34,001 nt of DNA. Origin: Bacteroidota bacterium. Lineage in GTDB: Bacteria > Bacteroidota > Bacteroidia > Flavobacteriales_C > GCA-002722245. The stretch is from positions 1-34,001 of the forward strand of contig JAPLEZ010000074.1 of assembly GCA_026390935.1 (NCBI GenBank), read 5' to 3'. Position 1 is the stretch's first letter, and every line of letters starts with the position of its first letter. A program made the position numbers and the translations under genes. Positions 2 to 28,720 of this stretch are shown in pieces. Below the pieces are notes generated by a model. It was not told the origin of the DNA, searched no databases, and saw only the letters and a program-made list of their open reading frames with translations.

Positions 2-3000
2 ATAACAGGTTGGGAAAGTTCTACTGATAATTTTTCAACTAGTACCACCATTGCAAATGTTACGGCGTCACAATCGTATTTGAATTTAACAGCTACAACA
101 AAATACAGAGCAATAATAAAATCAGGTACGTGCTCTTCTGTTACTTCAGCAGCAGAAACAATTACTGTTGATCCAGTATCAGTTGGAGGAACAGTAAGTG
201 CCGATGCAACGGTGTGTTCGGGATCCAATTCAGGAACTTTAACTTTGTCGGGTTATACTGGAAGTATAACAGGTTGGGAAAAGTCGACCAATAATTTTTC
301 TAGTAAAACAGCCATTGCAAATGTTACGGCGTCACAATCCTATTTGAATGTAACAGCTACAACAAAATACAGAGCAATCATAAAATCAGGAACATGTTCA
401 TCAGTTACTTCAGCAGAAGCAACAATTACTGTAGATCCTGTATCAGTGGGTGGAACAGTAAGTGCTAACACAACGGTATGTTCGGGATCCAATTCAGGAA
501 CCTTGACTTTGTCGGGTTATACTGGAAGCATAACAGGTTGGGAAAGTTCTACTGATAATTTTTCAACTAGTACCACCATTGCAAATGTTACGGCGTCACA
601 ATCGTATTTGAATTTAACAGCTACAACAAAATACAGAGCGATAATAAAATCAGGAACGTGCTCTTCTGTTACTTCAGCAGCAGCAACGATTACTGTTGAT
701 CCAGTATCAGTAGGAGGAACAGTAAGTTCTGATGCAACGGTGTGTTCGGGATCCAATTCAGGAACCTTGACTTTGTCGGGTTATACAGGAACTATCACAG
801 GTTGGGAAAAGTCTACCAATAATTTTTCTAGTAAAACAGCCATTGCAAATGTTACAGCGTCACAATCCTATTTGAATGTAACAGCTACAACAAAGTACAG
901 AGCAATCATAAAATCAGGAACGTGCTCTTCTGTTACTTCAGCAGAAGCAACGATTGCTGTTGATCCTGTTTCAATAGGTGGAACAGTAAGTGCTAATACA
1001 ACAGTATGTTCGGGATCCAATTCAGGAACCTTGACTTTGTCGGGTTATACAGGAGCTATCACAGGTTGGGAAAAGTCTACCAATAATTTTTCTAGTAAAA
1101 CAGCCATTGCAAATGTTACGGCTTCACAACCGTATTTGAATTTAACAGCCACCACAAAATACAGAGCCATCATAAAATCAGGAACGTGCTCTTCTGTTAC
1201 TTCAGCAGAAGCAACGATTACTGTTGATCCAGTATCAGTAGGAGGAACAGTAAGTTCTGATGCAACAGTATGTTCGGGATCCAACTCAGGTACTTTAATC
1301 TTGTCGGGTTATACCGGAACTATTACAGGTTGGGAAAGTTCAACAGATGATTTTGTGAATAACATCACATCAATTGCCGATGTTACGGCATCACATTCGT
1401 ACTTGAATTTAACCGCTACCACAAAATACAGAGCCATCATAAAATCAGGAACATGCTCGTCTGTTAATTCTGCAGCAGCAACAATTACTGTTGATCCTGT
1501 TTCTGTAGGAGGAATTGTAAGCACAGATAGTACAGTGTGTTCAGGTGCAAACTCAGGAACCTTAAGCTTGTCGGGTTATACTGGAAGCATTACAGGTTGG
1601 GAAAGTTCAATTGATGATTTCTCAACTAATATAAACATTGCAAATGTTACAGCTTCGCAATCGTATTTGAACTTAACTGTTACAACAAAATACAGAGCGA
1701 TAATAAAATCAGGAACGTGCCCTTCTATTAATTCAGTAGCAGCAACGATTACTGTTGATTCTTTATCAATAGGAGGTGTCGTTAGTTCTGATACCACAGT
1801 GTGTTCAGGATCCAATGTTGGAGTGTTGCAACTGACTTCTTATCGCGGAACAGTAATTGGTTGGGAAATGTCGACTGATAATTTTACAAACAGCGAGAAA
1901 ATTTCTGAGCTAAGTGATAGCTTACTTTTTAAAAATGTTGTTGAAAGCAAGAGATACAGAGCTATTGTGCAATCAGGAGTTTGTGCCCCAAAGACTTCTA
2001 CATCAGTTTTGATTAAGGTGGATTCTGTGACGGTTCCCGGCGTGGTGAGCGCCGATGATACTGTTTGCTCGGGAGCTAACTCAGGTAAATTAGTGCTTAG
2101 CGGATTTACTGGGAAAATCAGAAATTGGCAGAGTTCAATTAACGACTTTAGTACTTCTACCAGCATCGCGAATAAAACGAACACACTCGACTTCTCTAAT
2201 ATTACAGTAAAAACAAGTTTTAGGGCAGTTGTAAAATCGGGAATGTGTCCATCTAAAACGTCAATTGGAGCAACAATTACTGTTGATCCAACATCAGTAG
2301 GAGGAGTGGTAAGTGTTGATGCAACAGTGTGTTCGGGATCTAATGCGGGAATGTTGCAGTTAAGTGGAAGTGTTGGAACAGTGCTTGGATGGCAAAGTTC
2401 TACCAACGATTTTGTAGCAGTCAACAATATTTCCAATACAACATTGATTAATTCTTTTTCAGGATTAACAGCAACAACTAAATACAGAGCAATAGTAAAA
2501 TCGGGAACTTGTGCGGAAGATACTTCTTCCTTTGCTACGATTACAGTTGATTCTATCACTGTTGGTGGTATTGTAAGTGCCGATACAACAGTTTGTTCAG
2601 GATCAAATGCAGGTTCAATCACGTTGGGTGGCTTCACTGGAACAATCACAGGTTGGGAAAGTTCAACAGATGATTTTGCGAATGACATCACGCCAATTTC
2701 AAATGTAACAGCTATTCAATCGTATTTGAATTTAACAAGCACAACAAAATACAGAGCGCTAATTAAATCAGGAGTGTGTTCTTCTGCACAATCAACAGCG
2801 GTAACAATTACTGTTGATTCAGTATCAGTAGGTGGAACGGTGAGTGCTGATGCAACGGTGTGTTCGGGATCCAACTCCGGAGTGTTGACCTTGGCGGGTT
2901 ATACAGGAACTATCACAAGATGGGAAAAATCAAACGATGGATTTACATTGAATATTGATACCTTGTTAAACGGTTTTGCTAGTGAGAGTTTTAATGGCTT

Positions 3001-3350
3001 AACAGCAAGTACTCAATACAGGGCAATAGTGAAATCTGGCGTATGTCCTTCTGTGAATTCATCATCAGCAAAAATTACAGTTGATCCATTATCGGTTGGT
3101 GGAATATTGTCGTCAGATGAAATGGTTTGTAAAGGAGTAAATTCCGATACCTTGAGTTTGTCGGGATATACAGGAACAATTAGCAGATGGGAAAGTTCAA
3201 CGGATGATTTTGTGACTGACATTCAACCGATATCCAACACAACATATTTATTGGCTTACCAAAATGTTTCAGTACCTACTAAATACAGAGCCGTTGTTCA
3301 ATCGGGAGTATGTTCTTCGGTAAATTCATCGGAGGTTTTATTAAGTATTG
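2..3350 (+). repeat. Tandem 264-bp (88-codon) repeat array
   Basis: Equivalent Ile/Val codons of the TGW strand fall at 2, 266, 530, 794, 1058 and 1322, exactly 264 bp apart. The next unit is 267 bp (to 1589) and later units diverge. The units up to about 1320 are nearly identical at DNA level; those beyond about 1850 share mainly protein-level similarity. This implies recent amplification of the left part of the array by recombination or slippage. The array continues left of the window. Confidence 0.95.
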
Positions 3351-4312
3351 ATCCAATTGCGGTAAGCATCAACGACCAAAGTATTTGTGAAGGCAGTGTT
3401 GCTCAATTCAAAGTGGGACCAGCTTACAAAAAATACCAATGGAGTGGAATGAGCGCTGGCAATGATTCAATTCTTACAGCAACAAAAGCTGGGATGTATT
3501 ACATTGATGTGTTCAGTGATTTAGGTTGTGTTGCAAGCGACAGCGCAATACTGAGTATTAATTCTTTTCCTAAATCTGAATTGGGCGCAGATACTTCGAT
3601 GTGTGATGGGCAAAATGTTGTGTTGAATCCTCAAACCGCGAATAATTTAAAGTACGAGTGGTTGCCCGGATTGGAAAAAACAAAAACCATTTCAGTTAGT
3701 AAAACTGGCAAATATTCGGTTAAGGTGAGCGATGCGATAGGTTGTTCAAGAAGTGATTCAGTTTTTGTTCAAGTGCACAATTTGCCGCAAGCAACTTTAG
3801 GCAACGATACCACCATGTGCGAAAACGGTTATGATCGCTTGACTTTGCAATTGCACTATAATGGCACAAAGCAATTGTTGTGGAGCACAGGGGCTGCGAA
3901 TGTGGATTCAGTAATCGTTGGAGGAATTGGTTCTTATTGGGTAGAGGTTAGCGATTCCAATAAATGTTCAATTAGAGAATCTATTGAAGTAAGTCAGTTT
4001 TGTAACGATGTTTTTTTGGAATGGCCAAATGTAATAACGCCCAACGGAGACGGTATTAATGAACAGTTTCAACCAAAAAATATTAATGATGATAATTTTC
4101 AGCAAATAAAAGCCAATGTCAATTCAATAGAATTGGTAATGTATGATCGATGGGGAATTGAAGTGTTTCATGCATCAGGAGTGATCCCATTTTGGGACGC
4201 TACATTTAATGGGGTTATCGTTGCATCTGGAACATATTACTGGGTAGTTAATTACAGCACAACAGCAGGCAAAAGTCATGAACATTCGGGCTATTTAACA
4301 GTTCTGTATTAA
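2..4312 (+). CDS. Giant repeat adhesin-like protein, T9SS type B sorting domain (5' end outside window)
   Basis: The frame is open from base 2, so the true start lies left of the window; the apparent start near base 80 is only an in-frame TTG inside a repeat. Visible are one partial and twelve full copies of an unnamed 88-89 residue Ig/fibronectin-like repeat. Key elements of each are TVCSG-N-G, a GYTG..TGW(E/Q)-S strand, NLTATTKYRA(I/V)(I/V)KSGTC and a TITVDP linker, with a conserved cysteine pair per unit. After about base 3360 come three PKD/Ig-like domains, each starting near a D..(M/I)C motif. The last ~90 residues are a CHU_C/gliding-motility-associated domain (NVITPNGDGINE, MYDRWG, SGTYYWVVNY), the type B signal for T9SS export and surface attachment. 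By family knowledge such proteins are cell-surface or secreted adhesins. The ligand cannot be told. The same 88-residue repeat recurs in the gene at 28713-32465. Confidence 0.9.
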   Translation: MTGWESSTDNFSTSTTIANVTASQSYLNLTATTKYRAIIKSGTCSSVTSAAETITVDPVSVGGTVSADATVCSGSNSGTLTLSGYTGSITGWEKSTNNFSSKTAIANVTASQSYLNVTATTKYRAIIKSGTCSSVTSAEATITVDPVSVGGTVSANTTVCSGSNSGTLTLSGYTGSITGWESSTDNFSTSTTIANVTASQSYLNLTATTKYRAIIKSGTCSSVTSAAATITVDPVSVGGTVSSDATVCSGSNSGTLTLSGYTGTITGWEKSTNNFSSKTAIANVTASQSYLNVTATTKYRAIIKSGTCSSVTSAEATIAVDPVSIGGTVSANTTVCSGSNSGTLTLSGYTGAITGWEKSTNNFSSKTAIANVTASQPYLNLTATTKYRAIIKSGTCSSVTSAEATITVDPVSVGGTVSSDATVCSGSNSGTLILSGYTGTITGWESSTDDFVNNITSIADVTASHSYLNLTATTKYRAIIKSGTCSSVNSAAATITVDPVSVGGIVSTDSTVCSGANSGTLSLSGYTGSITGWESSIDDFSTNINIANVTASQSYLNLTVTTKYRAIIKSGTCPSINSVAATITVDSLSIGGVVSSDTTVCSGSNVGVLQLTSYRGTVIGWEMSTDNFTNSEKISELSDSLLFKNVVESKRYRAIVQSGVCAPKTSTSVLIKVDSVTVPGVVSADDTVCSGANSGKLVLSGFTGKIRNWQSSINDFSTSTSIANKTNTLDFSNITVKTSFRAVVKSGMCPSKTSIGATITVDPTSVGGVVSVDATVCSGSNAGMLQLSGSVGTVLGWQSSTNDFVAVNNISNTTLINSFSGLTATTKYRAIVKSGTCAEDTSSFATITVDSITVGGIVSADTTVCSGSNAGSITLGGFTGTITGWESSTDDFANDITPISNVTAIQSYLNLTSTTKYRALIKSGVCSSAQSTAVTITVDSVSVGGTVSADATVCSGSNSGVLTLAGYTGTITRWEKSNDGFTLNIDTLLNGFASESFNGLTASTQYRAIVKSGVCPSVNSSSAKITVDPLSVGGILSSDEMVCKGVNSDTLSLSGYTGTISRWESSTDDFVTDIQPISNTTYLLAYQNVSVPTKYRAVVQSGVCSSVNSSEVLLSIDPIAVSINDQSICEGSVAQFKVGPAYKKYQWSGMSAGNDSILTATKAGMYYIDVFSDLGCVASDSAILSINSFPKSELGADTSMCDGQNVVLNPQTANNLKYEWLPGLEKTKTISVSKTGKYSVKVSDAIGCSRSDSVFVQVHNLPQATLGNDTTMCENGYDRLTLQLHYNGTKQLLWSTGAANVDSVIVGGIGSYWVEVSDSNKCSIRESIEVSQFCNDVFLEWPNVITPNGDGINEQFQPKNINDDNFQQIKANVNSIELVMYDRWGIEVFHASGVIPFWDATFNGVIVASGTYYWVVNYSTTAGKSHEHSGYLTVLY

Positions 4313-9671: not shown

Positions 9672-12600
9672 TTATTTATTTACTATCACCTTATGTACAC
9701 TATTGCCAACTTTTAGGAAATATACACCAGCATCAATATTGGATAGATCAATCACCGTAATTTCTGCATCCAACGAATTCGTTAAAACAATTTCACCAAC
9801 GGAATTGAATAAATTGAAAGTTTGAATAGTAACTACATTTTTCAAAAGTACATTTAAGGTATTGTTCGCAGGATTTGGATATACTGCAATTAAATTTGAT
9901 GATTCATTATTTTCAATTCCTGTTATTGAACTTTCAGTAAACACTAAGGAATTAATGTTGAAGTTACCGTTGGCATCATCGAAATAGATTCGCATTAATT
10001 GTAATCCTGTTGAAAGCGTGAGGGTAGTGTTTACGGTAGTCCACGATTGAACTCCTCCAGTATTAGAAACAGCAATAGAACCGGAAGTGTTTTCGCCGTT
10101 AATATTCACGTGAAATTGTCCGGCACTGATTGCAGCAACTCTGATCGCAAGGTCATAGGTGCCTGCCTTTGTTACATTTACCAAGTATTCTTGCCATTCA
10201 TTGGTGCTGTTCCATCCAAGATTATAACCGCCACCTGCATCAGAACAAGTTTCGATATCAACACCTTCAGAGGTTCTGTATTGTCCTCCATTGTTGGATG
10301 GATCGTTGTCGTTGTATGCATTGCCTTGTCCACCTATATTGAAATCTTCGGCCTGTATGGTTCCTGGAATGGTAAGAGGAGCATTTGGTTTTGTGCCCAC
10401 AAATTTAATATAGTCGATTTTAACTGTGCCACTTGATGCAATGGTTGGGTCTAAACGAATCTGCTTTATCATTCCAGTCCAGTTAGGGTTGGCCGAAAGA
10501 TCGATGATGTAAGTGCGCTGTTTGCTGTCGTTGGACACAACAGGAATGGACACTCTTTTTGTGCCATCATATCCAGTTGCAGTTGTTGTAACCCAAAATA
10601 GTTCAGCCGTTGAAGCTGAAGTTTGGTTTTGCATACTTAACACTACATATTTGTAATCAGTAGCAGAAATGTTGAGGTTATCGGGTGAGTGCATGTAAGG
10701 GTCGTTACCCGTGATGTTTGCAGTGAAAATACTATTGGAAACTGTATTACTCATTGCCTGAATGGTGTTCCATCCTTCGATAGAATTAGTGAAATGCCAG
10801 TAGTTAGGTGACGAAGCGGTAGAAGGATTATTGATATCCCATCCCTTGAATTTATAAACTTCTTCCTTTAATATTTTAAGATATAAATCTCCAAAGCCAC
10901 CTTCCATAGGCTCCATGTCATTGCTGTATTCAGGATTTCGCTGTTCACCTTGACTACTTTCGCAGCCAGTCCATTCATTAAAAGACATGACTTGTACAAC
11001 ATCAACATCATATTTTTTTGCATAAGCAAACGATTCGCGAAGTGTTTCGCCATTTCTTCTTCCTTTGGCTCCTCCCCAAGTATCAATACAGTTTTTTAAA
11101 CCTGCATCAACTTGATTATAGCTTTCTGGTCCCCACCATCCGCAGGTGCGCAATGCTGCATGCGCAGCCATCCATTCCGGACGGCCATCGTATGCATAAG
11201 TTGGAGGGTGCACGTTTTCGCTCCACGACCAAAGGCCATTATTTGAGCGCATAGTGGCTTTGTCGTACATGTTGTTTTGAACCAGCGTCGCGAACATGTT
11301 CCTGATGGTGATGTTTGCGTCAAATTGTGAGTGGTTCCAGCTGTTGTAGTTCCAGTTGCCGTTTTGGTACGCAATAACAAGGGGTTTGCCTCTGTGCTTG
11401 TAATAAACCGCTCCTCTAGTGGCATGATCAATATAATTTGTTTTAACAACCTGTACTTCTGAATTCATTGTGCCATCAACGTTGGCTGCTTCGTTAAATG
11501 GACACCCGATCATAATACATACTTGAACGTATGGCAAACCATTGTTTTTTCGCCATACCTGGCGATCTACAAAAACTTCTGTAAAAGCTTCTAACCATTG
11601 ATTCTGTGTGCCGCAGTTATTTGACCAATCCATCGAAACATAATCTATCCCTGCATCTGTGAGCCAGTCAGTATGTTTGTCAATCACGGCAAGATCATTT
11701 GATTTATAGTATCCCAGCTGCGGCTTTGCCCAAGAACATACTGCGTTGGTTGCCACAGCGGCATCACTCCAAACTGCATTGGGGTGCCAAGGAGAGTAGG
11801 CGATGCCGACCTGTTTGTCTTTACCGTTTTGGTCATGTAATACATGGGCAAGGTCTATACCTAAATTGATAGAGCCTGGTGGCACGAAATGATTGTCGTT
11901 TACTCCAATGGGAAATCGAACTTTATCGGTGCTAGGATCAAAAATTCCTACGTATTGCAAGTCGTCGGCAACTTTTTGTTGGGCGTTTCTAACCAAAGGC
12001 CCCTGTGTGGCATCGCCCCAGTTAGGGATGGTTTGTGAAATAGCAAATTGCATGTTTGGAGATTTGAACTCACTTCGCAAATCGGAAATTAAATTTTTCA
12101 AATGTCCTTCGTATTCGGCTCCTTTGCCTTCCATCATGTCGGATTCGCCCTGTATCCAGCCCATGCCTGCAATTTCATACGTGCCTCCAATAGATGCTAA
12201 TGCAGTATTTACGCTATTTACGATAGTAGTATAACCCTGCCCCAAAGTGCCGCCGCGGGACGGCGGACGAAAATAACTATGAAGCGCTTGTCCGGGACGG
12301 TTACATTTTATAATTGCAATTTTATCATTTGGATAAAGTTGCGATAAGGTATATCCCATACTCAATTCTGGTCCGGCGAAGCCCGACCAATCGTATCCCC
12401 AACCTGGAGCCAGAGCTTGCCATGTTCGCACATTTGCGCGAGGTGCTGGTTTTGAAGGATTAATGTCCTCATAGGTTTCACCAATCCAACATTTGATGCT
12501 GGTATGTGTTTTATTCATTTCAACTGGCCATTGATTGATTGGTACATTACCGTTGCAATTAGATTGGCCACTAAGAATAAAAACTTTGTAATGATTTTGA

Positions 12601-12674
12601 GTCTTTGCGTTAGTTGAAGATAGAGCCAACGCAAGTAAAATGAATAAGTGTTTTGATTTAAAAATTTTACGCAT
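9672..12674 (-). CDS. Secreted bifunctional enzyme: SASA-type carbohydrate esterase + GH99-like domain + CBM6, T9SS type A
   Basis: 1000 residues with a signal peptide (about 1-25). Residues 30-280 form a SASA/CE6-like SGNH esterase: FILSGQSN (Ser38), GWIQGESD (172-179) and a late DNH motif (His262), predicted to remove acetyl groups from polysaccharide or sialate. Residues ~288-610 resemble GH99/WbsX-like and DUF5010 barrels: GYYKSND..VIDKHTDWLTDAGIDYVSMD, then SFNEWTG (Glu567) and a late MEP motif. Residues ~625-757 are an unassigned beta-sandwich module (YMHSPDNL, IKQIRLDP). Residues ~762-890 are CBM6 (AEDFNIGGQGNAY, GGGYNLGW, EWQEYLVNV). Then comes a type A sorting domain (VYPNPANNTL, GVYFLKVG). 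The two C-terminal modules recur in the GH43 protein at 21056-23380. A 17-bp GC-rich palindrome lies within the esterase part. Substrate and GH99-like activity are inference. Confidence 0.85.
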   Translation of the reverse strand: MRKIFKSKHLFILLALALSSTNAKTQNHYKVFILSGQSNCNGNVPINQWPVEMNKTHTSIKCWIGETYEDINPSKPAPRANVRTWQALAPGWGYDWSGFAGPELSMGYTLSQLYPNDKIAIIKCNRPGQALHSYFRPPSRGGTLGQGYTTIVNSVNTALASIGGTYEIAGMGWIQGESDMMEGKGAEYEGHLKNLISDLRSEFKSPNMQFAISQTIPNWGDATQGPLVRNAQQKVADDLQYVGIFDPSTDKVRFPIGVNDNHFVPPGSINLGIDLAHVLHDQNGKDKQVGIAYSPWHPNAVWSDAAVATNAVCSWAKPQLGYYKSNDLAVIDKHTDWLTDAGIDYVSMDWSNNCGTQNQWLEAFTEVFVDRQVWRKNNGLPYVQVCIMIGCPFNEAANVDGTMNSEVQVVKTNYIDHATRGAVYYKHRGKPLVIAYQNGNWNYNSWNHSQFDANITIRNMFATLVQNNMYDKATMRSNNGLWSWSENVHPPTYAYDGRPEWMAAHAALRTCGWWGPESYNQVDAGLKNCIDTWGGAKGRRNGETLRESFAYAKKYDVDVVQVMSFNEWTGCESSQGEQRNPEYSNDMEPMEGGFGDLYLKILKEEVYKFKGWDINNPSTASSPNYWHFTNSIEGWNTIQAMSNTVSNSIFTANITGNDPYMHSPDNLNISATDYKYVVLSMQNQTSASTAELFWVTTTATGYDGTKRVSIPVVSNDSKQRTYIIDLSANPNWTGMIKQIRLDPTIASSGTVKIDYIKFVGTKPNAPLTIPGTIQAEDFNIGGQGNAYNDNDPSNNGGQYRTSEGVDIETCSDAGGGYNLGWNSTNEWQEYLVNVTKAGTYDLAIRVAAISAGQFHVNINGENTSGSIAVSNTGGVQSWTTVNTTLTLSTGLQLMRIYFDDANGNFNINSLVFTESSITGIENNESSNLIAVYPNPANNTLNVLLKNVVTIQTFNLFNSVGEIVLTNSLDAEITVIDLSNIDAGVYFLKVGNSVHKVIVNK
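12250..12266. repeat. GC-rich 17-bp palindrome inside the esterase domain
   Basis: CCGCCG-CGGGA-CGGCGG is a perfect 6-bp stem with a 5-nt loop and is almost wholly G+C within an A+T-rich gene. On the coding strand it encodes RPPSRGG between SYF and TLGQGY of the esterase domain, in frame. It looks like a short palindromic insertion tolerated by the protein. Confidence 0.5.
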
Positions 12675-12962: not shown

Positions 12963-15900
12963 TTACAATTGTAATTTGCTGTGTTTTTGAATGTATTCTT
13001 TTGGAGAGACGCCGTAATATTTAGAAAACACTTTTGTAAAGTAAGAGGAGTCACTAAATCCAACGAAATACGAAATTTGTGTGATGTTTAAATTGTCTTC
13101 TAACAAGAGCTGGCTACTTTTCTTCAATCGAATTATTTTAATGAAATCGTTGATGGTCATTCCACTCGCATTTTTAATTTTCACATATAAACTGCTTTTG
13201 CTCATTTTCATTTCTGTAGCCATTAAATCGCCATTGAGATGTGTATTGTCGATATTTTTTTCAACAAATTTACTGAGGTGATTGATGAAATCTTGATTGG
13301 ATTGATCAGGGTGATCATCTTTAGATTTTGAGGAGGATGAATTTGAAAATCTGTTTTTTACATTTTCAACCGTACGCAATAAATTATTTATGGTGTTGAG
13401 CAGCGCTTGCTTGTTAAATGGTTTGTGAATATAGGCATCGGCTCCAGCTTCTAAACCTTTTTGTTGTGCCATTTCAGAAGTTTGAGCGGTCATCAAAATG
13501 AATGGAATATAACCGGTATTTTTATCGGATTTTATTCGCTGACAAAATGAAATTCCATTTTCGCCGGGCATATTAATATCGCTCAAAATAATATCTGGAT
13601 GTTCTTTAGTGATGAATTCATAGGCTTCGTTTGCATTGCCGCTTAAGCGAACGCTGAAATAATCCGACAGCAAATCATTTAGCATATTTCTCACTTGCGG
13701 ATCGTCCTCAATAATTAGTATTTGTTTGTTAAAGAATTCCTCTTGAACTTCAACTGCAATTTCTTTTTTAATGTTTTCTTTTTTTACATCCTCCATCAGA
13801 TTTTCGGACATTACATATTCAACATTGCCTGGAATATGAAGATTAAAAGTGCTGCCAAATCCTAGTTTACTTTCTATTTCCAAATTGCCGCCGTTAATGG
13901 CAATAAATTCTTTTGCAATCATAAATCCTAAACCGGTTCCTGTTTCCTTTTCGGTTCCTACGCTGCTAAAGAAACTTTGTTTTTTCAGCAGTTTAACAAT
14001 GGTTTCGGGTTCCATTCCAACACCATTATCGGTGATGCTTAAGGTGATGTATTCGTTGTTTTTTAAAACGGATTCAATGCGTATTTCTCCAAATTGATTA
14101 GTGAATTTTATGGCATTGCTCAATATGTTTCTAATTGCTGCGCTAATCATTTCTCTGTCGCAATTAATGAAGTGGGTTGTGTTAATGGCTAATTTAATTT
14201 CAATGTTTTTGAGCGAAGCTTGAAGCTGAACCACTTGGGTGATGTCGTTGATTATTTCATTGAGATTTATTTTTTCTTTATTGATTTTGATATTGGAGGT
14301 TTGCGTGCGGGTCCAATCCAATAAATTTAAAACCAAATTTTTCAGTCGGGTAGAGGAAAGCTCTAAATTGCGTGTTAAAGAACGGTGTCGATCATTTGTT
14401 GAATCTTTAAATTCCTCGTTTATCAATTCACTTAGTAAGGACATGGAGGTGATTGGATTTTTTAAATCGTGTGCAACAATTTCGTAAAATTTATCCTTCA
14501 TTAATTGTTGTTCTTCAATGACCTTGGTTCTGTTTTTTACTTCTTGTTGAAGGAAAATATTTTGCTTTTTTATTTGAATGGTTTTTAAGTAGAAGTACCC
14601 AATTGATCCAACTAGAATGGTTACTGCTAGTAGCGTTTTGAACCACCAAGTCATGTACCAAGGAGGAAGGATAATTAAAGTCAGTACTTTTGGGTTTTTA
14701 CTCCACAGGCCATCGCTATTGGCTGCTTTTACCAAAAATTGGTATGTGCCTGGCGATAAATTGGTGTAAGTTGCAATTCGCCTGTCAGCAGAAACTTCTC
14801 TCCAGTTTTCATCAAAACCTTGTAATTTATACGCGTATTTATTTTTTTGCGGAGCGAGGTATTCTAGAGCGGAAAATTCAAAGCTGACAATGTTTTCTGA
14901 ATAGAATAGTTCAATGGTGTCGCAAAGGTTAATTGCTTTATTTAAAATTTCTCGTTCGTTTAATAAGCTTTTTGGATTGATAGGGTTGTTAAAAATAGAT
15001 AGGTTGGTAATTACCACCTGAGGTACTTTGGTGTTAAAAGTGATACTATCGGGATGAAAGAAGTTGAAACCATCAATTCCGCCAAAGTAGAGGTATCCGT
15101 TTTTTGTTTTTGCTTTACTGTTGTAATTGAATTCATTGCTTACCAATCCATCTTCAGAAGTATAGTTGACAAATGTTTTCTTTTTAGGATCAAAACTAGA
15201 AATCCCTTTATCTGTGCTGAGCCACAATAATCCGTTTGCATCTTCTAAAATGCAGTACACGTTGGTGGTGTTGAGTCCCTGGTTTTTTGAGTAGTTTTGA
15301 AATTTTTGAGTTTTGCGATCAAGCATTTCACACAATCCACCGTAAACAGTAGCGAACCATATTTTTCCATGACTATCTTCAAAAACATCTCTTATTTCAT
15401 CGGAGGGCAGTGAATGATGGAAACTACTTGCTTTTGTGAAATGTGTGTACGTTTTGTTTTTTGGATCAAAGCAAACTGCGCCGTTGGTTTCCGTAGAAAG
15501 CCATATTTGGTTTTTACTGTCTTCGCACAGCGCAAATACATTTGATGCAGCGAGTTTTTTGTGCAAAGTTTCGTCAATAGAATTGTGTGAAATATTTCCG
15601 TTGGTATGATTCATTGCATCAAATCCATTACACAAAAATCCTATATACAAATTTGTGCCATCGGCGGAATTTAAAAGCGCCCAAACTTTGTCGCCAGCAA
15701 TATTTTTTTCGGGAAAACGATTGTCGGGCAAAAACTGTTGAGTGCTGTTGTTTTCCATATCCCACTTGCAAATTCCCTTGCCGTATGAGCCCAACCATAG
15801 TTTTTTATTTTTGTCGATAGAAATGGATTTTACAACATCAAAACAAATTTTTGAATTTGCTGTAGAAAAAAAACTAATTTCATTTTTGTTGAAGTCGAAA

Positions 15901-17060
15901 TAATTTAAACCACCTCCATCTGTTCCCAACCACACATTGTTTTTTTCATCCTCGGCAATGCATAAAACCGATTTGTTGTTTAGCTTTTTCCCAGGTTCTC
16001 CTTTGATGGTGAAGCCATTAAATTTTAGTTTTGATTTGTTCCACATACTTACTCCTGCAGCATAGGTGCCCACCCATATTGTGTTATCATTGAATTGCTC
16101 TATGGCATAAACTGCGTTACTGGCTAATGATGTTGGATCATCTTCGTTGTGTTGGATGTAAGAGATGTTACCGTTTTTGTAGGTGGCGATCCCTTCGCCA
16201 TCACTACCAATCCAAACTGTCCCATCTGCAGTTTCTTTAATGCATATGATATTGTTCGACTTGATTTTATTGTTTTCTGCACTTAGTTTTTCGTAAGTCC
16301 AATTGACGGTATTGATAATTAAAATACCGTCGCTTCCGTTGCTGATCCATAATTTTCCTTCTCTTGTAAATTTTACAATTCCACCTTTATTGAATGTTTC
16401 GGATTTTGCTTTTGGATAAGGAATTTCTTTGTATTGAAAGGATTTTTGGTTTGGATTAAATATACACAGTTCATTGCCAATTCCATATAGCCATAGGTTT
16501 CCATTAGGATCTTCGGTCATGCTGCAAATAAAAGGTTTGTCTCTGTTTTTAAAGGGATAGAAGTGAGTGAACTTTCCTGTTTTAATATCGAATAAGTCGA
16601 GTCCTATTCTTGTTCCAATCCATATACGTCCAGCTTTGTCCTGAAAAACATTTAGCACGTAATCGTGATTTAGGCTGTTGGCACTGTTTTTTTTGTTGGA
16701 ATAGCGTTTGAAATCATCGCGACTTTTATTGTAAACACAAAATCCATTGTATTGAAAGGCTATGATTAATTGGCCTTCTTTGGTTTCATAAATTTGGCGA
16801 ATTTGATTCCCGGCAATTGAAGTGCTGTCATTGGGTTGATTGATGTAACTGTGGAAATTATATCCATCAAATCGCGATAAGCCATTGAAGGTACCAAACC
16901 ACATGAAGCCTTGCTGATCTTTTTGAATGGATGTAACATGACTATTGATGAGACCATCTTTATCGGAAATATGTTCGAAGGAGAATTTTTGTGCAGGCAG
17001 CAATTCAAAAATGAATAAGCATATAAGCCAACTGATTTTTTGCAAATTAAAACACATCAT
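12963..17060 (-). CDS. Hybrid two-component system sensor kinase / AraC-type regulator (HTCS)
   Basis: 1365 residues. A signal peptide or anchor (1-23) is followed by Reg_prop beta-propeller repeats (to about residue 690), with many W(F/I/L)GT and G(L/I)..FD motifs. Next are a Y_Y_Y domain (about 720-795; YKLQGFDENW, TYTNLSPGTYQF), one membrane helix (about 806-826), HisKA with EIVAHDLKNP (His864), HATPase_c with NAIKFT, DNGVGM and GTGLGF, a receiver domain (IIEDDPQ; phospho-acceptor Asp1161 in SDINMP; Lys in HKPF near 1212) and a C-terminal AraC helix-turn-helix (about 1285-1360; SKSSLYVKIK, FSDSSYFTKVF). All catalytic residues are present. By family knowledge HTCS proteins sense oligosaccharides in the periplasm and switch on polysaccharide-use genes. 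The neighbours (CE, GH99-like, GH43) are likely targets, which is inference. Confidence 0.95.
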   Translation of the reverse strand: MMCFNLQKISWLICLFIFELLPAQKFSFEHISDKDGLINSHVTSIQKDQQGFMWFGTFNGLSRFDGYNFHSYINQPNDSTSIAGNQIRQIYETKEGQLIIAFQYNGFCVYNKSRDDFKRYSNKKNSANSLNHDYVLNVFQDKAGRIWIGTRIGLDLFDIKTGKFTHFYPFKNRDKPFICSMTEDPNGNLWLYGIGNELCIFNPNQKSFQYKEIPYPKAKSETFNKGGIVKFTREGKLWISNGSDGILIINTVNWTYEKLSAENNKIKSNNIICIKETADGTVWIGSDGEGIATYKNGNISYIQHNEDDPTSLASNAVYAIEQFNDNTIWVGTYAAGVSMWNKSKLKFNGFTIKGEPGKKLNNKSVLCIAEDEKNNVWLGTDGGGLNYFDFNKNEISFFSTANSKICFDVVKSISIDKNKKLWLGSYGKGICKWDMENNSTQQFLPDNRFPEKNIAGDKVWALLNSADGTNLYIGFLCNGFDAMNHTNGNISHNSIDETLHKKLAASNVFALCEDSKNQIWLSTETNGAVCFDPKNKTYTHFTKASSFHHSLPSDEIRDVFEDSHGKIWFATVYGGLCEMLDRKTQKFQNYSKNQGLNTTNVYCILEDANGLLWLSTDKGISSFDPKKKTFVNYTSEDGLVSNEFNYNSKAKTKNGYLYFGGIDGFNFFHPDSITFNTKVPQVVITNLSIFNNPINPKSLLNEREILNKAINLCDTIELFYSENIVSFEFSALEYLAPQKNKYAYKLQGFDENWREVSADRRIATYTNLSPGTYQFLVKAANSDGLWSKNPKVLTLIILPPWYMTWWFKTLLAVTILVGSIGYFYLKTIQIKKQNIFLQQEVKNRTKVIEEQQLMKDKFYEIVAHDLKNPITSMSLLSELINEEFKDSTNDRHRSLTRNLELSSTRLKNLVLNLLDWTRTQTSNIKINKEKINLNEIINDITQVVQLQASLKNIEIKLAINTTHFINCDREMISAAIRNILSNAIKFTNQFGEIRIESVLKNNEYITLSITDNGVGMEPETIVKLLKKQSFFSSVGTEKETGTGLGFMIAKEFIAINGGNLEIESKLGFGSTFNLHIPGNVEYVMSENLMEDVKKENIKKEIAVEVQEEFFNKQILIIEDDPQVRNMLNDLLSDYFSVRLSGNANEAYEFITKEHPDIILSDINMPGENGISFCQRIKSDKNTGYIPFILMTAQTSEMAQQKGLEAGADAYIHKPFNKQALLNTINNLLRTVENVKNRFSNSSSSKSKDDHPDQSNQDFINHLSKFVEKNIDNTHLNGDLMATEMKMSKSSLYVKIKNASGMTINDFIKIIRLKKSSQLLLEDNLNITQISYFVGFSDSSYFTKVFSKYYGVSPKEYIQKHSKLQL

Positions 17061-18641: not shown

Positions 18642-18835
18642 ACCTAAATTTACATCGATTTAAATGCCCGATTGTGTATTTTTCATTCAGTAATTTGTAA
18701 TAATCATTCAACGGGAAATTTTTCATTGAGCTCATAATCTGCGTTGCATAGCAATTTTCTTACACTTATTGCGCCGTACTTATTTTGCTTTTTTTTATTC
18801 TTTCAATGAGAATACTGAATGATTAATCAATATAT

Positions 18836-20029
18836 ATGAATGAATATTCGATGCTAAAAACACGCTTAAATATTAAATTACCATCCATTAAAATGGTAGA
18901 TATGAAAGCTCGATTTGATTGTTTTAAAGTGTTGTTTTTATTAATATTTCTTTCGTGGAAGTCAAATCTAATGGCGATAACCGCCATTGCTCCCAATCAC
19001 CAGAGTTTACAATATCAAGGCAGAATAGAAGTTAAGAATGCAAATGAACGCAATTTCATTTGGTCGGGTACTTCTGTGAAAATGAGATTTAACGGTACAA
19101 AATTATGGGTTCGTTTTACTGACCATGCTTTGGGCGCTGATGACGCAACTAATTACTACAATGTATTGGTGAATGAAGAATTGGTAGAAGTATTGAAATT
19201 AAATAAAAAGGATAGTATTTATGAGTTGAAAGGAATTCCTGCAGGGAAAGATTGTTTGGTTGAAATATTTAAAAGAACAGAAGCTGCAGTGGGTGGAAGC
19301 ACTTTTAAAGGTTTTGTTTTGGATGGCAGAATTTTGCCAATGAAAAATACCGCATTCAGAAAAATTGAAGTGATTGGCGATTCTTGGTCGTGCGGATATG
19401 GTAATGTTGTTAAATATGCTGATCCTTCTATTCATCCTGGTTTTCATTCAGCTAATGAAGATAATTATTCCGCGTTTGGTAGTATTGTTTCGCGCAGATT
19501 TGGCGCTCAATATATGTGCACGGCTTATTCGGGAAGAGGGGTGTCTAGAAACTTCGATGGAAGCACAACAGGTACGATGCCGAAGATTTATAAAACATTA
19601 ATTCCGGATGATACAAACACCAAATGGGATACAAAATTGTACACTGCCGATTTGCTGATTTGTTTTTTGGGCACCAACGATTTTGCAAAAGAACGTGAAG
19701 GGATTTCTCTTGATTCTGCGACTTTTGTGGCTTCGTATATTGAATTGATTAAAGCGCTAAAAAATGATCAGCCTAAAGCAAAAATTTTAATTGTGTATGG
19801 AGGTTCAGTGACCGACGATTATCCAAAGGGAAAGAGATGGTTGAGCAGATGGAGAAACTATACTACCGCAGTTGTGAAATATTTTGGTGAGGATAGTTCT
19901 TTAATGAAATTTGAACTCGCTCCGCAAAAGGCGCCTTACGGCGAAGATTTTCACCCCTCTGAACAAACTCAAAGAGATATAGCCATGCAAATTTGTGCTG
20001 TAATTCAAAAGTATTTAGGATGGCAGTAG
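18836..20029 (+). CDS. SGNH/GDSL carbohydrate esterase, CE2-like
   Basis: 397 residues from the first ATG. The real start may be the Met at 18902 (residue 23), which gives a clean signal peptide (KARFDCFKVLFLLIFLSW). Residues ~55-165 form a beta-sandwich (FIWSGTSVKMRFNGTKLWVRF), as in the jelly-roll N-domain of CE2 enzymes. Residues ~177-395 are the SGNH hydrolase: VIGDSWSCGYG (Ser183, block I), GRG (Gly234, block II), FLGTND (Asn281, block III) and DFHPS (Asp371/His373, block V). The full catalytic set is present. CE2 enzymes remove acetyl groups from xylan, glucomannan or xylooligosaccharides, which fits the neighbouring GH43 and SASA enzymes. There is no T9SS sorting domain, so it is probably periplasmic. 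Its stop lies 7 bp from the stop of the convergent regulator gene. Confidence 0.85.
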   Translation: MNEYSMLKTRLNIKLPSIKMVDMKARFDCFKVLFLLIFLSWKSNLMAITAIAPNHQSLQYQGRIEVKNANERNFIWSGTSVKMRFNGTKLWVRFTDHALGADDATNYYNVLVNEELVEVLKLNKKDSIYELKGIPAGKDCLVEIFKRTEAAVGGSTFKGFVLDGRILPMKNTAFRKIEVIGDSWSCGYGNVVKYADPSIHPGFHSANEDNYSAFGSIVSRRFGAQYMCTAYSGRGVSRNFDGSTTGTMPKIYKTLIPDDTNTKWDTKLYTADLLICFLGTNDFAKEREGISLDSATFVASYIELIKALKNDQPKAKILIVYGGSVTDDYPKGKRWLSRWRNYTTAVVKYFGEDSSLMKFELAPQKAPYGEDFHPSEQTQRDIAMQICAVIQKYLGWQ

Positions 20030-21055: not shown

Positions 21056-23380
21056 TTATTTCGCAATTAATAGTTTTGAAACACTATCTCCAGTGCTCAC
21101 CAAATATAAACCCTCCGACCAGTTTTCGGTATTGATAGTTGTTTTAAAATCGTTTTTACCACTAAATATTTCAGAATAAACTACATTGCCAAGCATATCG
21201 AAAACAAGTAATTGATTGTTTTCACTTACCGTGCTGAACGACAATTGCACTTGATTTTGAGCCGGATTGGGCATTATGCTTAAGGTTGTGGTTTTTTCTA
21301 ATTGCTGAATTCCTGTTGTTGGATTCGCAGTAAACGTGATTTTATTTATATTGAATTCATTGGTTTCGTTGTACACTCGCAATATGTGTTTGCCGCTGTT
21401 TAGCCATGCAATCATTGTTTGATTGGTATAAGTTTGCCAGCCACCAGTATTAGGCACTACATAAGAAGTTCCAATTTTCTCTCCATCTATTTCCAAGCGC
21501 AATCCTTTGCCGGTAGATGCTGACGCTACTCTGACTGTGATGTTATAGTCGTTTGAACTTTTTACATCCACCAAATATTCCATCCACTCGTCAACGGCAG
21601 TCCATCCAATATTGTAACCACCTCCAACATCTGAAGTGCTTTCAATATCAACGCTTTCACTTGTTCTGTATTTTTCTCCGTAGTTGTATGGGTCAACATC
21701 ATAGTAAGCATTTCCTTGTCCGCCTTTGTTGAAGTTTTCTGATTCAAGAACACCTGGAATTGCAATAGCGGCAGCGTAGGTACCAACAAATTTTATGAAA
21801 TCAATATTTACTGTTCCCGAAGTTGCAGTAGTTGTTGGATCCAGTCGAATTTGTTTAATGATGCCTTTCCAGTTGGCGTTAGCGCTGAGGTCAATGATGT
21901 GATACATTTGTTTTGTAGCATTTGCAGTAATTGGAAAAGTAACGTGTTTAGATCCATTCCATGCGCCGTCGATGGAGGTGGTCCAAAAAAGTTCGCCTGT
22001 TGTAGCGGTAGTCATGTTGCGCATTCGAACTACAACATATTTGTATTCGCTGCCCGATATCCCAAGCTGATCGGGGGAATGCATATAAGGATCATTCCCG
22101 CTGATAGTTGTTTTTATCATGTTGCTGCTTACGCTTCCAGCCATTTGACTGTTTAAAGTCCATCCTTCCAAATCGCTAGTGAAGTTCCAGTAGTTGGTAA
22201 CAGCTTTTTGTACTGTGCCAGTTTCATTTAAACCTACAATTGGTTTTGCAGTAAAGTCGGGAATCATTTTTCCGTTGAATGTCCGCCAACCAATTTCTTG
22301 TAACATGATTCTTCTTTCCCATTCATACGCAGTATTGCCATTATTAAATCCGTCATTGTGTTTACTATGGTAATACATATATAATTTTGAGTTGTCGGGT
22401 GATGGCGCCAGTGCAGCAACACCAGGTCCTTTTATTCCTTTAGCGTGCAAACTGGTGGCACTTTGGTCGGCGTTGTTGGATGCGAACAAACGTTCTTCAC
22501 CATTGTAATCTACTTTTTTCCAATAATCTGGACTTGACACCTGCGTTGCTGAGGTGCCTGTAAAGTAGATCATTCCTACGGCATACATATTCGTATTTGC
22601 ACCGTTAATAGATAAAAGCATGAACATTTCATCATCTCTTCCAGATATTCCAAACATAGAAGGAGTGTAAACCGCTGGCGCTTCCACAACTACTCCTGAT
22701 GATCCAAACTGCGGTCTTTGTCCGTAACCGAAGGAATAGGTAGCCACCATATTGCCACCAGAAGCTACAGGTTGAGCCAACGAAAAAGTAGTTCCGTCGT
22801 AATTCACTTTTGATATAAACACACTTTCAAATCCCCAGTCGTACGTGGTGGTGTTTTCATTTCCTGCCCATGCGACAAATAGTTCTCCTTTGTAAAAAAA
22901 TGGGTAGAAGTCTAAGCGGTATTGCATTTGTTTGTATAAATCGCCAACTTTATTTGTCCACGTACCTGTGTAAGGATCTCCATCACATTCCCATAAACCC
23001 TGACCAAATAAATACCATTTATTTACTGTTTTTCCATACAATGTGCTTATGTAAATTGGCGGACTCAATGGTGCGCCATTCGGCAATGCTTTCGGAGTAC
23101 CTAGTTCTGATAATATTTTTGTTTTGTATATGTAATTGTCAACGCCAGGCACTTTTCCCTGTGACCATTTTACATAGTAGTAATATCCGTCTTTAAAGGA
23201 TGCTTTAGCATCATAGCCCGATTCAAAAATCGGATTGGTGTAGGATACGTTGGTGGTTGTTTGTGCGCTTAAGTTGATAGTCATTGTCAACAGTAGCAGT
23301 GCAGTAATAAAAGTTTTTGGCTGCTTTTTATTCGTTACAAGAAATGATGAAAATAGGTGTAAAATTGTTTTCATAATCAA
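21056..23380 (-). CDS. GH43-like glycosidase with CBM6, T9SS type A sorting domain
   Basis: 774 residues with a signal peptide (hydrophobic core ~22-38, ending LSAQ). Residues ~45-385 fit a GH43 five-bladed propeller: NPIFESGYDAKASFKDGYYY (candidate base Asp57), RLDFYPFFYKGELFVAWAG (candidate pKa-tuning Asp157), VVEAPAVY (candidate acid Glu233) and GPGVAALAPSPDNSKLYMYY. GH43 enzymes are usually arabinofuranosidases or xylosidases. Residues ~390-530 are the same unassigned beta-sandwich as in the SASA enzyme (YMHSPDQLGISG, IKQIRLDPT). Residues ~535-675 are CBM6 (LESENFNKGGQGNAYYDVDP, GGGYNIGW, EWMEYLVDV). The end is a type A sorting domain (IMPNPAQNQVQ, EGLYLVSTG). The shared modules suggest both enzymes bind the same polymer. 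It stands alone on the minus strand between a regulator gene and a giant type B gene. Confidence 0.85.
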   Translation of the reverse strand: MIMKTILHLFSSFLVTNKKQPKTFITALLLLTMTINLSAQTTTNVSYTNPIFESGYDAKASFKDGYYYYVKWSQGKVPGVDNYIYKTKILSELGTPKALPNGAPLSPPIYISTLYGKTVNKWYLFGQGLWECDGDPYTGTWTNKVGDLYKQMQYRLDFYPFFYKGELFVAWAGNENTTTYDWGFESVFISKVNYDGTTFSLAQPVASGGNMVATYSFGYGQRPQFGSSGVVVEAPAVYTPSMFGISGRDDEMFMLLSINGANTNMYAVGMIYFTGTSATQVSSPDYWKKVDYNGEERLFASNNADQSATSLHAKGIKGPGVAALAPSPDNSKLYMYYHSKHNDGFNNGNTAYEWERRIMLQEIGWRTFNGKMIPDFTAKPIVGLNETGTVQKAVTNYWNFTSDLEGWTLNSQMAGSVSSNMIKTTISGNDPYMHSPDQLGISGSEYKYVVVRMRNMTTATTGELFWTTSIDGAWNGSKHVTFPITANATKQMYHIIDLSANANWKGIIKQIRLDPTTTATSGTVNIDFIKFVGTYAAAIAIPGVLESENFNKGGQGNAYYDVDPYNYGEKYRTSESVDIESTSDVGGGYNIGWTAVDEWMEYLVDVKSSNDYNITVRVASASTGKGLRLEIDGEKIGTSYVVPNTGGWQTYTNQTMIAWLNSGKHILRVYNETNEFNINKITFTANPTTGIQQLEKTTTLSIMPNPAQNQVQLSFSTVSENNQLLVFDMLGNVVYSEIFSGKNDFKTTINTENWSEGLYLVSTGDSVSKLLIAK

Positions 23381-28597: not shown

Positions 28598-28720
28598 TCC
28601 ACCTAAAGCAAGATTTTCTGCAACCGTAAGTTCCGGAATAACAGATTTGCCTTCAGATACATGTGATATTCCGTGGCGAACTAAATTTTCTGGTTTCTTT
28701 CCAAGAATATTTTCACCGGC
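28592..28720 (-). other. Embedded fragment of an ABC-transporter ATPase (LivF-like)
   Basis: Read in the minus frame starting at 28720, 43 codons give a sequence typical of the region between Walker A and the signature motif of branched-chain amino-acid ABC ATPases. It includes NLVRHGISHVSEGKSVIP and LTVAENLALGG, equivalent to the family's IVPEGR..F..(M/L)TVEENL.(M/L)G. No Walker A, signature or Walker B lies nearby, so it is only a slice of a gene. The flanks are repeat units of a giant type B gene in a different frame. It causes the stop codons that split that gene. Confidence 0.7.

Follow-up and report, generated by a model that had tools for sequence, protein, structure and literature searches.

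The stretch of DNA analyzed here, hereafter the window, comprises 34,001 nucleotides from a Bacteroidota bacterium (assembly GCA_026390935.1, contig JAPLEZ010000074.1, positions 1 to 34,001). One of its genes encodes a protein in which a SASA/CE6-type esterase of the SGNH fold is followed by a barrel resembling glycoside hydrolase (GH) families 99 and 71, a beta-sandwich, a carbohydrate-binding module of family 6 (CBM6), and a sorting domain of the type IX secretion system (T9SS). With moderate confidence, we read the product as a secreted carbohydrate enzyme with two catalytic domains, in which the esterase would deacetylate an acetylated, alpha-substituted hemicellulose and the barrel would cleave an alpha-type linkage in it. 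The layout is a new combination of domains of known kinds. More interesting is the barrel, which belongs to a family without the catalytic dyad of GH99 and GH71.

Domain layout and the esterase site

The gene is a single unbroken open reading frame (ORF) on the minus strand, running from 12674 to 9672 and encoding 1000 amino acids according to the ORF list and the translation. Pfam assigned four domains to the product, all above the curated cut-offs: SASA at residues 30–278 (E = 6e-21), Glyco_hydro_99 (PF16317) at 310–448 (E = 2.5e-10; 40.5 bits against a cut-off of 33), CBM_6 (PF03422) at 798–913 (E = 9e-20), and Por_Secre_tail (PF18962) at 931–997 (E = 4e-10). The Glyco_hydro_99 match covers only profile positions 52–173 of 341, about one-third of that model. 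The sole NCBIfam match was the sorting domain TIGR04183, and the protein has the features of a T9SS type A cargo as well as those of a CBM6. This layout agrees with the initial annotation, in which a SASA/CE6-like SGNH esterase with a GQSN serine and a histidine was joined to a GH99-like barrel keeping an NEW motif, and a sandwich without assignment, CBM6, and T9SS features followed. The G+C content is even across the junction between the esterase and the barrel (0.42 and 0.44 overall; 0.36 and 0.41 at third positions), so there is no sign of a chimeric join. In the predicted models, the last helix of the esterase is separated from the first strand of the barrel by only about four residues (284–287). 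The esterase and the barrel with its sandwich were modeled separately, since a mixed alignment (A5) placed 14 of 14 esterase rows onto the barrel or sandwich. Promoter-like matches occurred at chance level (13, compared with 11.1 in shuffled sequences). As a separate observation, residues 916–1000 (9675–9929, minus strand), which include the sorting domain, have a G+C content of 0.29 (third position 0.20), compared with 0.41–0.44 in the remaining gene.

The esterase carries the motifs GQSN (36–39, with Ser38), QGE (175–177), and His262. Its model was built from 15 alignment rows and has a predicted local distance difference test score (pLDDT) of 87.7. The fold search gave Z-scores of 26.8 for the CE6-type protein At4g34215 (2apj), 25.8 for 1zmb, 23.6 for CE20, and 22.5 for NanS, with CE20 and NanS entries at 22–24. 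When the domain sequence alone was searched against the PDB, CE20 9ega was the best match (E = 0.002) and 2apj the second (E = 0.009); the profile of alignment A4 matched 2apj and 1zmb at 1e-18, NanS at 3e-10, and CE20 at 1e-7. Relatives of the esterase were found in 9 of 197 other genomes (10 matches, in frames of 298–383 amino acids and one of 649); nine were aligned in A4 and the tenth (L133) later. The viral set consists of 19 loci from the A4 scan, 14 of which were aligned and five of which were left out (L138, L143, L145, L151, and L152). Every aligned cellular and viral row retains GQSN, QGE, and the last His, as does the window esterase, which also keeps all 21 invariant columns of A4.

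The departure from SASA/CE6 esterases lies in Block V, which reads Asn259-Asp260-Asn261-His262. Asn259 occupies the position of the usual DxxH Asp, and Asp260 that of DxH. The DxxH Asp is present in 9 of the 10 cellular rows and 13 of the 14 aligned viral rows; among the left-out viral loci, four of five have D-x-x-H by pattern, and in L152 none was seen by eye at the appropriate position. The window esterase is thus a SASA/CE6 enzyme by its Pfam match, SGNH fold, GQSN, QGE, and Block V His, and departs from these esterases in the DxxH Asp. From the side of CE20, it has the Block V DxH (Asp260-Asn261-His262) and lacks the inserted ancillary domain, being a contiguous unit of 265 residues. Insertion of an ancillary domain into the SGNH domain is a trait of CE20, except in the eukaryotic CE20 sialate esterases. 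That the esterase is simply devoid of a catalytic acid was considered and then qualified, because L133 (648 amino acids, CE20-like by eye) has the same arrangement, with Asn replacing the DxxH Asp and an Asp at the DxH position, and because CE20 uses DxH. In CE20, the Block V Asp sits in DxH, works via a bound water, and is naturally sometimes Asn, and its change to Asn lowers the efficiency about 2.5-fold (PMC12313940). According to a review, NanS, which functions as a 9-O-acetylesterase, is without the Block V Asp (PMC9487903). Because Asp260 occupies the CE20 DxH position, esterase activity is plausible, and the site may be regarded as unusual but not necessarily dead.

A barrel family without the GH99/GH71 dyad

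In the barrel, Asp349 lies in strand 2, Asn566-Glu567-Trp568 (NEW) follows the last strand, and a further acidic motif, ExSxDxEP, runs from Glu582 through Asp586-x-Glu588-Pro589. A plain sequence search of the PDB matched residues 290–569 to BtGH99 (E = 6e-5). For the model of the barrel plus sandwich (50 rows; mean pLDDT 70.5; predicted template modeling score 0.67), the first 28 rows of the fold search are all GH99 (Z = 21.5–22.1; root-mean-square deviation 3.2–3.7; 265–275 aligned residues; 15–20% identity), followed by 5ngw (Z = 20.6), GH71 (16.2–16.6), and other barrels (at most 14.1). Foldseek concurred on the GH99 fold (E = 1.8e-9). The structural match spans model positions 7–334, corresponding to residues 286–613, in line with the limits of 288–610 and the glycosidase-type fold that had been proposed for this region. 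The predicted strand 559–565 leads straight into Asn566-Glu567, and Asp349 stands at the end of strand 345–350. In profile–profile comparisons, the NEW motif of the window family pairs with the NEW of GH99 (E = 6.7e-15, with only two GH99 rows), equating Glu567 with the first catalytic Glu of NEWHE, and with the NDF of GH71-like proteins (E = 6e-11), where Glu567 stands opposite the Asp of NDFGE. The place of Glu567 behind the last strand and its pairing with the GH99 catalytic Glu bear indirectly on the pocket location that the initial annotation had set as a criterion. DUF5010, also named there, was set aside because Pfam reported no such domain even at a threshold of E = 1. At that threshold the window protein did not match WbsX (PF14307) either; weak matches to WbsX occur in 3 of the 50 family rows (best E = 0.0065).

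Alignment A2, which includes a relative from Frondihabitans and two further relatives, was used to scan genome contigs and yielded at least 589 pattern matches and at least 519 confirmed relatives, the best 80 of which were kept for further work. The phyla among these 80 loci include Bacteroidota, Bacillota, Planctomycetota, Lentisphaerota, Kiritimatiellota, and Armatimonadota. Alignment A3 (50 rows) combines 48 of these loci, picked for diversity, with the window and Frondihabitans barrels. The window barrel is at most about 32% identical to any of its relatives. In A3, 13 columns are invariant, including Asp344, Asp349, Asn566, Glu567, Asp586, and Glu588 (window numbering). The A3 profile matched GH99 in the PDB at E = 3e-10, with the best non-GH99 match at 0.019; this search revealed no solved member of the family, and NCBIfam has no model for it. 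In Pfam at E ≤ 0.01, 35 of the 50 rows match GH99, three match WbsX, and one matches GH71.

The family lacks the defining acid pairs of both relatives. GH99 carries EW[H/G]E (PMC11025385), whereas GH71 has a D-x-x-E dyad in which a change of either acid reduces activity 200- to 15,000-fold (PMC12394665). The window barrel has only the first Glu (Glu567) of the GH99 E-x-x-E: the residue at +3 is Gly570, and an acid is found at +3 in 0 of 50 family rows (four rows read directly). The GH71 dyad is absent as well, since the motif is NEW without a Glu at +3. Assignment of the barrel to GH99 was rejected on this ground, and the barrel may act like GH99 or GH71 yet falls outside the definition of either. 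The idea of a decayed barrel was judged less likely, as none of the 50 rows has the +3 Glu and the window barrel preserves the invariant columns.

A candidate replacement lies downstream. ExSxDxEP starts with Glu in 48 of 50 rows and with Asp in one, whereas L109 has no visible motif; in the window barrel, 15 residues lead from Glu567 to Glu582. Since GH99 and GH71-like rows carry E-G-T-x-x-E-P directly after the catalytic motif, the most straightforward interpretation is that residues were inserted between the two carboxylates, and ExSxDxEP may replace the missing +3 Glu. A hint of such an insertion comes from profiles of the C-terminal fragments, in which the EP motifs of GH99 and GH71-like proteins pair across a 21-column gap in local mode with low confidence, but not in global mode.

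A tree was built from 67 rows. Apart from the barrels of the window and of Frondihabitans, the family rows fall into a single group (98/90). Those two barrels stand separate from each other, between this group and the GH99 plus GH71-like rows. Their position is unsure because their branches are long (2.14 for the window barrel against a median of 0.32), and the tree program warns that the joining of GH99 and GH71-like rows may be a long-branch effect. A large protein elsewhere (L030/L170, in G006:C24) has a barrel with both the D-x-T-N motif of the window family and a Glu at +3 (NEWSE), a possible bridge between the window family and the E-x-x-E families.

The fusion itself is rare. A direct barrel search at E = 1e-5 matched none of the 394 other phylum-sample genomes and none of the 9 others of the family; this search is insensitive, as it missed two further family barrels of the same genome that the A3 profile found. 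At the same threshold, the A3 profile matched 18 of 395 phylum-sample genomes, strongly only in three (G103, G371, and the host, which has three such genes). In the plasmid collection, there was one barrel match, from Frondihabitans sp. PAMC 28766, with about 30% identity over 62% of the barrel. This relative (L043 5746–7395) is on plasmid NZ_CP014515.1, typed as mobilizable, and has an insert of more than 100 residues between its GKPL and NE motifs. Two barrel scans of viral contigs produced 52 and 18 pattern matches, none of which was confirmed as a relative. With the esterase alone as the query, 0 of 3 matches in viral contigs were confirmed (the A4 scan gave the 19 loci above); the same outcome, 0 of 3, came from an initial scan of genome contigs with a single protein. 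The esterase profile (E = 0.01) was run on ORFs of at least 120 amino acids in all loci through L123, among them the 80 family loci with flanks of up to 6 kb. It recovered only the esterase–barrel gene, which lies in three loci that overlap one another; it found nothing in seven further loci. The SASA–barrel fusion is a singleton so far among the genomes and loci examined, which did not include metagenomes. Consistent with the initial annotation, the open-access literature searched contained no SASA–GH99-type fusion and no characterized enzyme of such a layout.

Genomic context and proposed function

The features of the gene and its surroundings are listed in Table 1.

Table 1. Positions of the domains of the esterase–barrel gene and of neighboring genes in the window.
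Feature	Position	Strand	Basis
Whole gene: SASA esterase, GH99-like barrel, beta-sandwich, CBM6, and T9SS sorting domain; 1000 amino acids	9672..12674	-	ORF translation, Pfam/NCBIfam
Signal-peptide-like N terminus, residues ~1–24 (putative)	12603..12674	-	Read by eye: Lys-rich start, then hydrophobic stretch
SASA/CE6-type SGNH esterase, residues ~24–285	11820..12605	-	Pfam, alignments A4/A7/A11, predicted model, fold search
GH99/GH71-superfamily (beta/alpha)8-like barrel, residues 283–615	10830..11828	-	Pfam, GH99 profile match, model, fold search, alignment A3
Beta-sandwich accessory module, residues ~616–768	10371..10829	-	Shared with other proteins of the genome; no Pfam family
CBM6, residues ~769–915	9930..10370	-	Pfam; PDB phmmer E = 4e-32
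Type A T9SS C-terminal sorting domain, residues 931–1000	9675..9884	-	PF18962, TIGR04183
Hybrid two-component sensor/regulator (HTCS), directly upstream, same direction	12963..17060	-	Pfam: Reg_prop x7, Y_Y_Y, HisKA, HATPase, Response_reg, AraC HTH
CE2-type esterase (CE2_N + GDSL)	18836..20029	+	Pfam
GH43-like N-terminal domain with shared beta-sandwich, CBM6, and T9SS tail	21056..23380	-	Pfam for CBM6 and tail; weak PDB match

The HTCS is likely the regulator of the esterase–barrel gene. In the GH43-like protein, the N-terminal domain has no Pfam family and a weak GH43-type match to 3akf (E = 7e-4), and the sandwich is 52% identical to that of the esterase–barrel protein. The window also codes for a response regulator with an AraC-like end, as read from the sequence. 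No SusC or SusD, the pair that marks a polysaccharide utilization locus, was found among the 5 of 14 long window ORFs (at least 190 amino acids) scanned with Pfam, the gene included. Together, the HTCS, the CE2-type esterase, and the GH43-like protein with the same sandwich–CBM6 tail suggest acetylated hemicellulose as the substrate. A scan of 10 neighbor proteins from 6 of the 80 family loci identified two SusD, one SusC-like, one DUF5722, one glucuronyl esterase, one DUF7133/cytochrome c, and one RNA methyltransferase protein, and gave no match for three. Most neighbors in the family loci and the window fit polysaccharide breakdown, most likely of acetylated hemicellulose. In L068 (3560–5665), a DUF5722 protein is encoded directly upstream of the barrel gene, and the upstream ORF in L040 is similar by eye; the DUF5722 protein and the barrel may act together.

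The sandwich and CBM6 together match five other places in the same genome, and the sandwich alone matches two more. In GH71, the barrel packs against a beta-sandwich of its own. A sandwich also follows the window barrel; it is a shared module, and the model there is poor (pLDDT below 50 at model positions 338–370). Foldseek matches of the sandwich are weak and CBM11-like, on a low-confidence part of the model, and its PDB profile matches (best E = 0.014) were taken as chance. This module of about 150 residues recurs in the window (10371–10829 and 21761–22228) and in L037 and L038, and might represent a carbohydrate-binding module not yet described. The top matches of the window CBM6 among solved structures include the CBM6 of the 2y8k/5g56 protein; 2y8k is an arabinoxylan-acting protein.

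Of the two further family barrels in the host genome, one is part of a T9SS protein of 999 amino acids and the other stands behind GH43 and CBM6, split by a frame change. This split GH43–sandwich–CBM6–barrel gene breaks at about 18664–18670 of G000:C53 (L037 15848–18733 and 18424–19203); the barrel match resumes in another frame just before NEW, and the contig ends shortly after. Either a sequencing error or a true frameshift may be involved. Elsewhere in the window, three very long, secreted-looking proteins with repeat units of similar style are encoded on both strands (80–4312, plus; 23483–27469 and 28713–32465, minus); one repeat in the first of them reads SVGGTVSADATVCSGSNSG.

For a two-domain enzyme acting on hemicellulose, the proposed course would be as follows. 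T9SS would secrete the protein, and the SASA/CE6-type domain would remove O-acetyl groups using Ser38 and His262, the latter backed by the CE20-like DxH Asp260 or, given Asn259 at the usual DxxH Asp position, by no acid. The barrel would act as a glycosidase of the GH99/GH71 superfamily that cuts an alpha-type linkage; a degenerate barrel would hardly be expected to preserve the 13 invariant columns that it has. Glu567 would serve as one catalytic carboxylate, and the second, not being a +3 Glu, would most likely be Glu582 (or Asp586 or Asp349). The sandwich and CBM6 would keep both active sites on one polysaccharide, such that acetyls blocking the barrel are removed in place. Judged from the neighbors, the target would most likely be an acetylated, alpha-substituted hemicellulose. 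In this proposal the order of the domains, their folds, the state of the motifs, and the neighboring genes are observed, whereas catalysis by either domain, the identity of the acids, the substrate, and the coupling are inferred.

Several points weigh against this reading. The +3 Glu that GH99 and GH71 require is absent from the barrel. The second acid cannot be placed because the barrel model is only moderately confident and its insertion site (model positions 291–300) averages a pLDDT of 51. In CE20, the water of the DxH Asp is held by the inserted ancillary domain (PMC12313940), which the window esterase lacks, and Asp260 may therefore not work as in CE20. As the SASA–barrel fusion was seen nowhere else, there is no evidence of selection for coupling. 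Finally, the substrate is assigned from the neighbors only. The initial interpretation holds for the folds, the fused layout, and the family names; because the +3 Glu is missing and Block V is of the DxH and not the DxxH type, it is unsafe to presume for either site the mechanism of its namesake family.

A different substrate is an unlikely alternative: the barrel could be an active alpha-glycanase on acetylated alpha-mannan-type or fungal/lichen glycans, from whose backbone the esterase strips O-acetyls. Alpha-mannans are GH99 substrates and alpha-1,3-glucan is a GH71 substrate (PMC11025385; PMC12394665; PMC13421300), and the sole barrel match in the plasmid collection comes from the lichen-associated Frondihabitans, where the gene sits among genes for GH78, GH43, and trehalase. 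However, the CE2, the GH43-like domain, and the 2y8k-close CBM6 in the same protein or window fit hemicellulose better, and the tree does not put the Frondihabitans row beside the window row.

It is also rather improbable that only one domain is catalytic, with either the esterase degraded by the change of the DxxH Asp to Asn or the barrel turned into a binding domain after loss of the dyad. The Asn259 that replaces an Asp kept by nearly all aligned relatives, the absent +3 Glu, and the long branch of the window barrel, as relaxed constraint would give, are consistent with this view. Nevertheless, a Glu at +3 is absent from all 50 rows drawn from a widespread family, which argues against decay in this protein; both domains preserve their invariant columns (13 in the barrel, 21 in the SASA domain), and a CE20-type acid is available in Asp260. 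That both domains are active on separate substrates and merely co-secreted appears very unlikely: the fusion is known from one genome and may be recent and neutral, and the CE6–CE1 enzyme of Flavobacterium johnsoniae gained no fusion benefit on beechwood, but one CBM6 and one sandwich serve both closely spaced domains here, and synergy between two domains has been reported for a fused esterase (PMC7110780).

A bolder reading, which we hold to be distinctly improbable, is that the barrel represents a new GH family in which the GH99 pair is split, with the first Glu after the last strand and the second on an inserted ExSxDxEP loop. In the GH99-type mechanism, the 2-hydroxyl of the substrate is the nucleophile, and the reaction proceeds via a 1,2-anhydro sugar. 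If this mechanism were kept, 2-O-acetylation would block the barrel chemically, and the esterase would unmask the nucleophile of the second reaction, making the protein a coupled deacetylase–glycosidase.

These findings point to a large GH99/GH71-like family that is without the dyad defining its relatives. The fused esterase hints at what the substrate of the barrel carries, and identifying the second acid would reveal in what way a GH99 barrel reconstructs its catalytic center. The fusion also offers a concrete test case for esterase–glycosidase coupling and a useful starting point for understanding the deacetylation and cleavage of acetylated polysaccharides.

Comparison with known enzymes

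With GH99 (BtGH99 4acy, BxGH99 4ad1, and human MANEA 6zdf), a family of retaining endo-alpha-1,2-mannosidases and mannanases, the window barrel shares the fold, the NEW motif with the first catalytic Glu, and the partial Pfam match. It differs in lacking the second Glu at +3, in its low identity to the solved structures, and at the strand-2 position of Asp349, which is Ser in the two GH99 rows. GH71 and the bacterial GH71-like NDFGE proteins also share the barrel fold, and the strand-2 Asp (DW) is common to GH71-like rows and the window barrel. GH71 has a beta-sandwich after the barrel too (PMC12394665), whereas the window sandwich also occurs without such a barrel. Moreover, the window barrel has Glu-Trp, not Asp-Tyr/Phe, and no Glu at +3. 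The barrel also resembles the GH99/GH71-like family with the signature GWNEWxAGR...E[YH]SRDIEPM.GG, which has the same invariant Asp/Asn/Glu set and ExSxDxEP and likewise no +3 Glu. The window barrel differs from this family by its separate long branch, its lack of the Arg of NEWxAGR, and the SASA domain in front, and is 22–30% identical to it. A little-known related group, GH99_GH71_like_3 (cd11575), has a DYGE motif (PMC13421300).

The esterase resembles SASA/CE6 proteins (2apj, 1zmb) and NanS (3pt5) in fold, GQSN, QGE, and His, and NanS is likewise without the Block V Asp; unlike SASA/CE6 proteins, it has Asn259 for the DxxH Asp and a barrel fused behind. With CE20 (7kmm, 9ega, 9h4u), it shares the SGNH fold, GQSN, and the Block V DxH, but not the inserted ancillary domain. 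For the fusion as a whole, the nearest known systems are the CE6–CE1 enzymes of Bacteroides ovatus and F. johnsoniae, also from Bacteroidetes, in which CE6 is likewise joined to a second catalytic domain; the partner there is a feruloyl esterase, whereas that in the window is a glycosidase barrel (PMC7110780).

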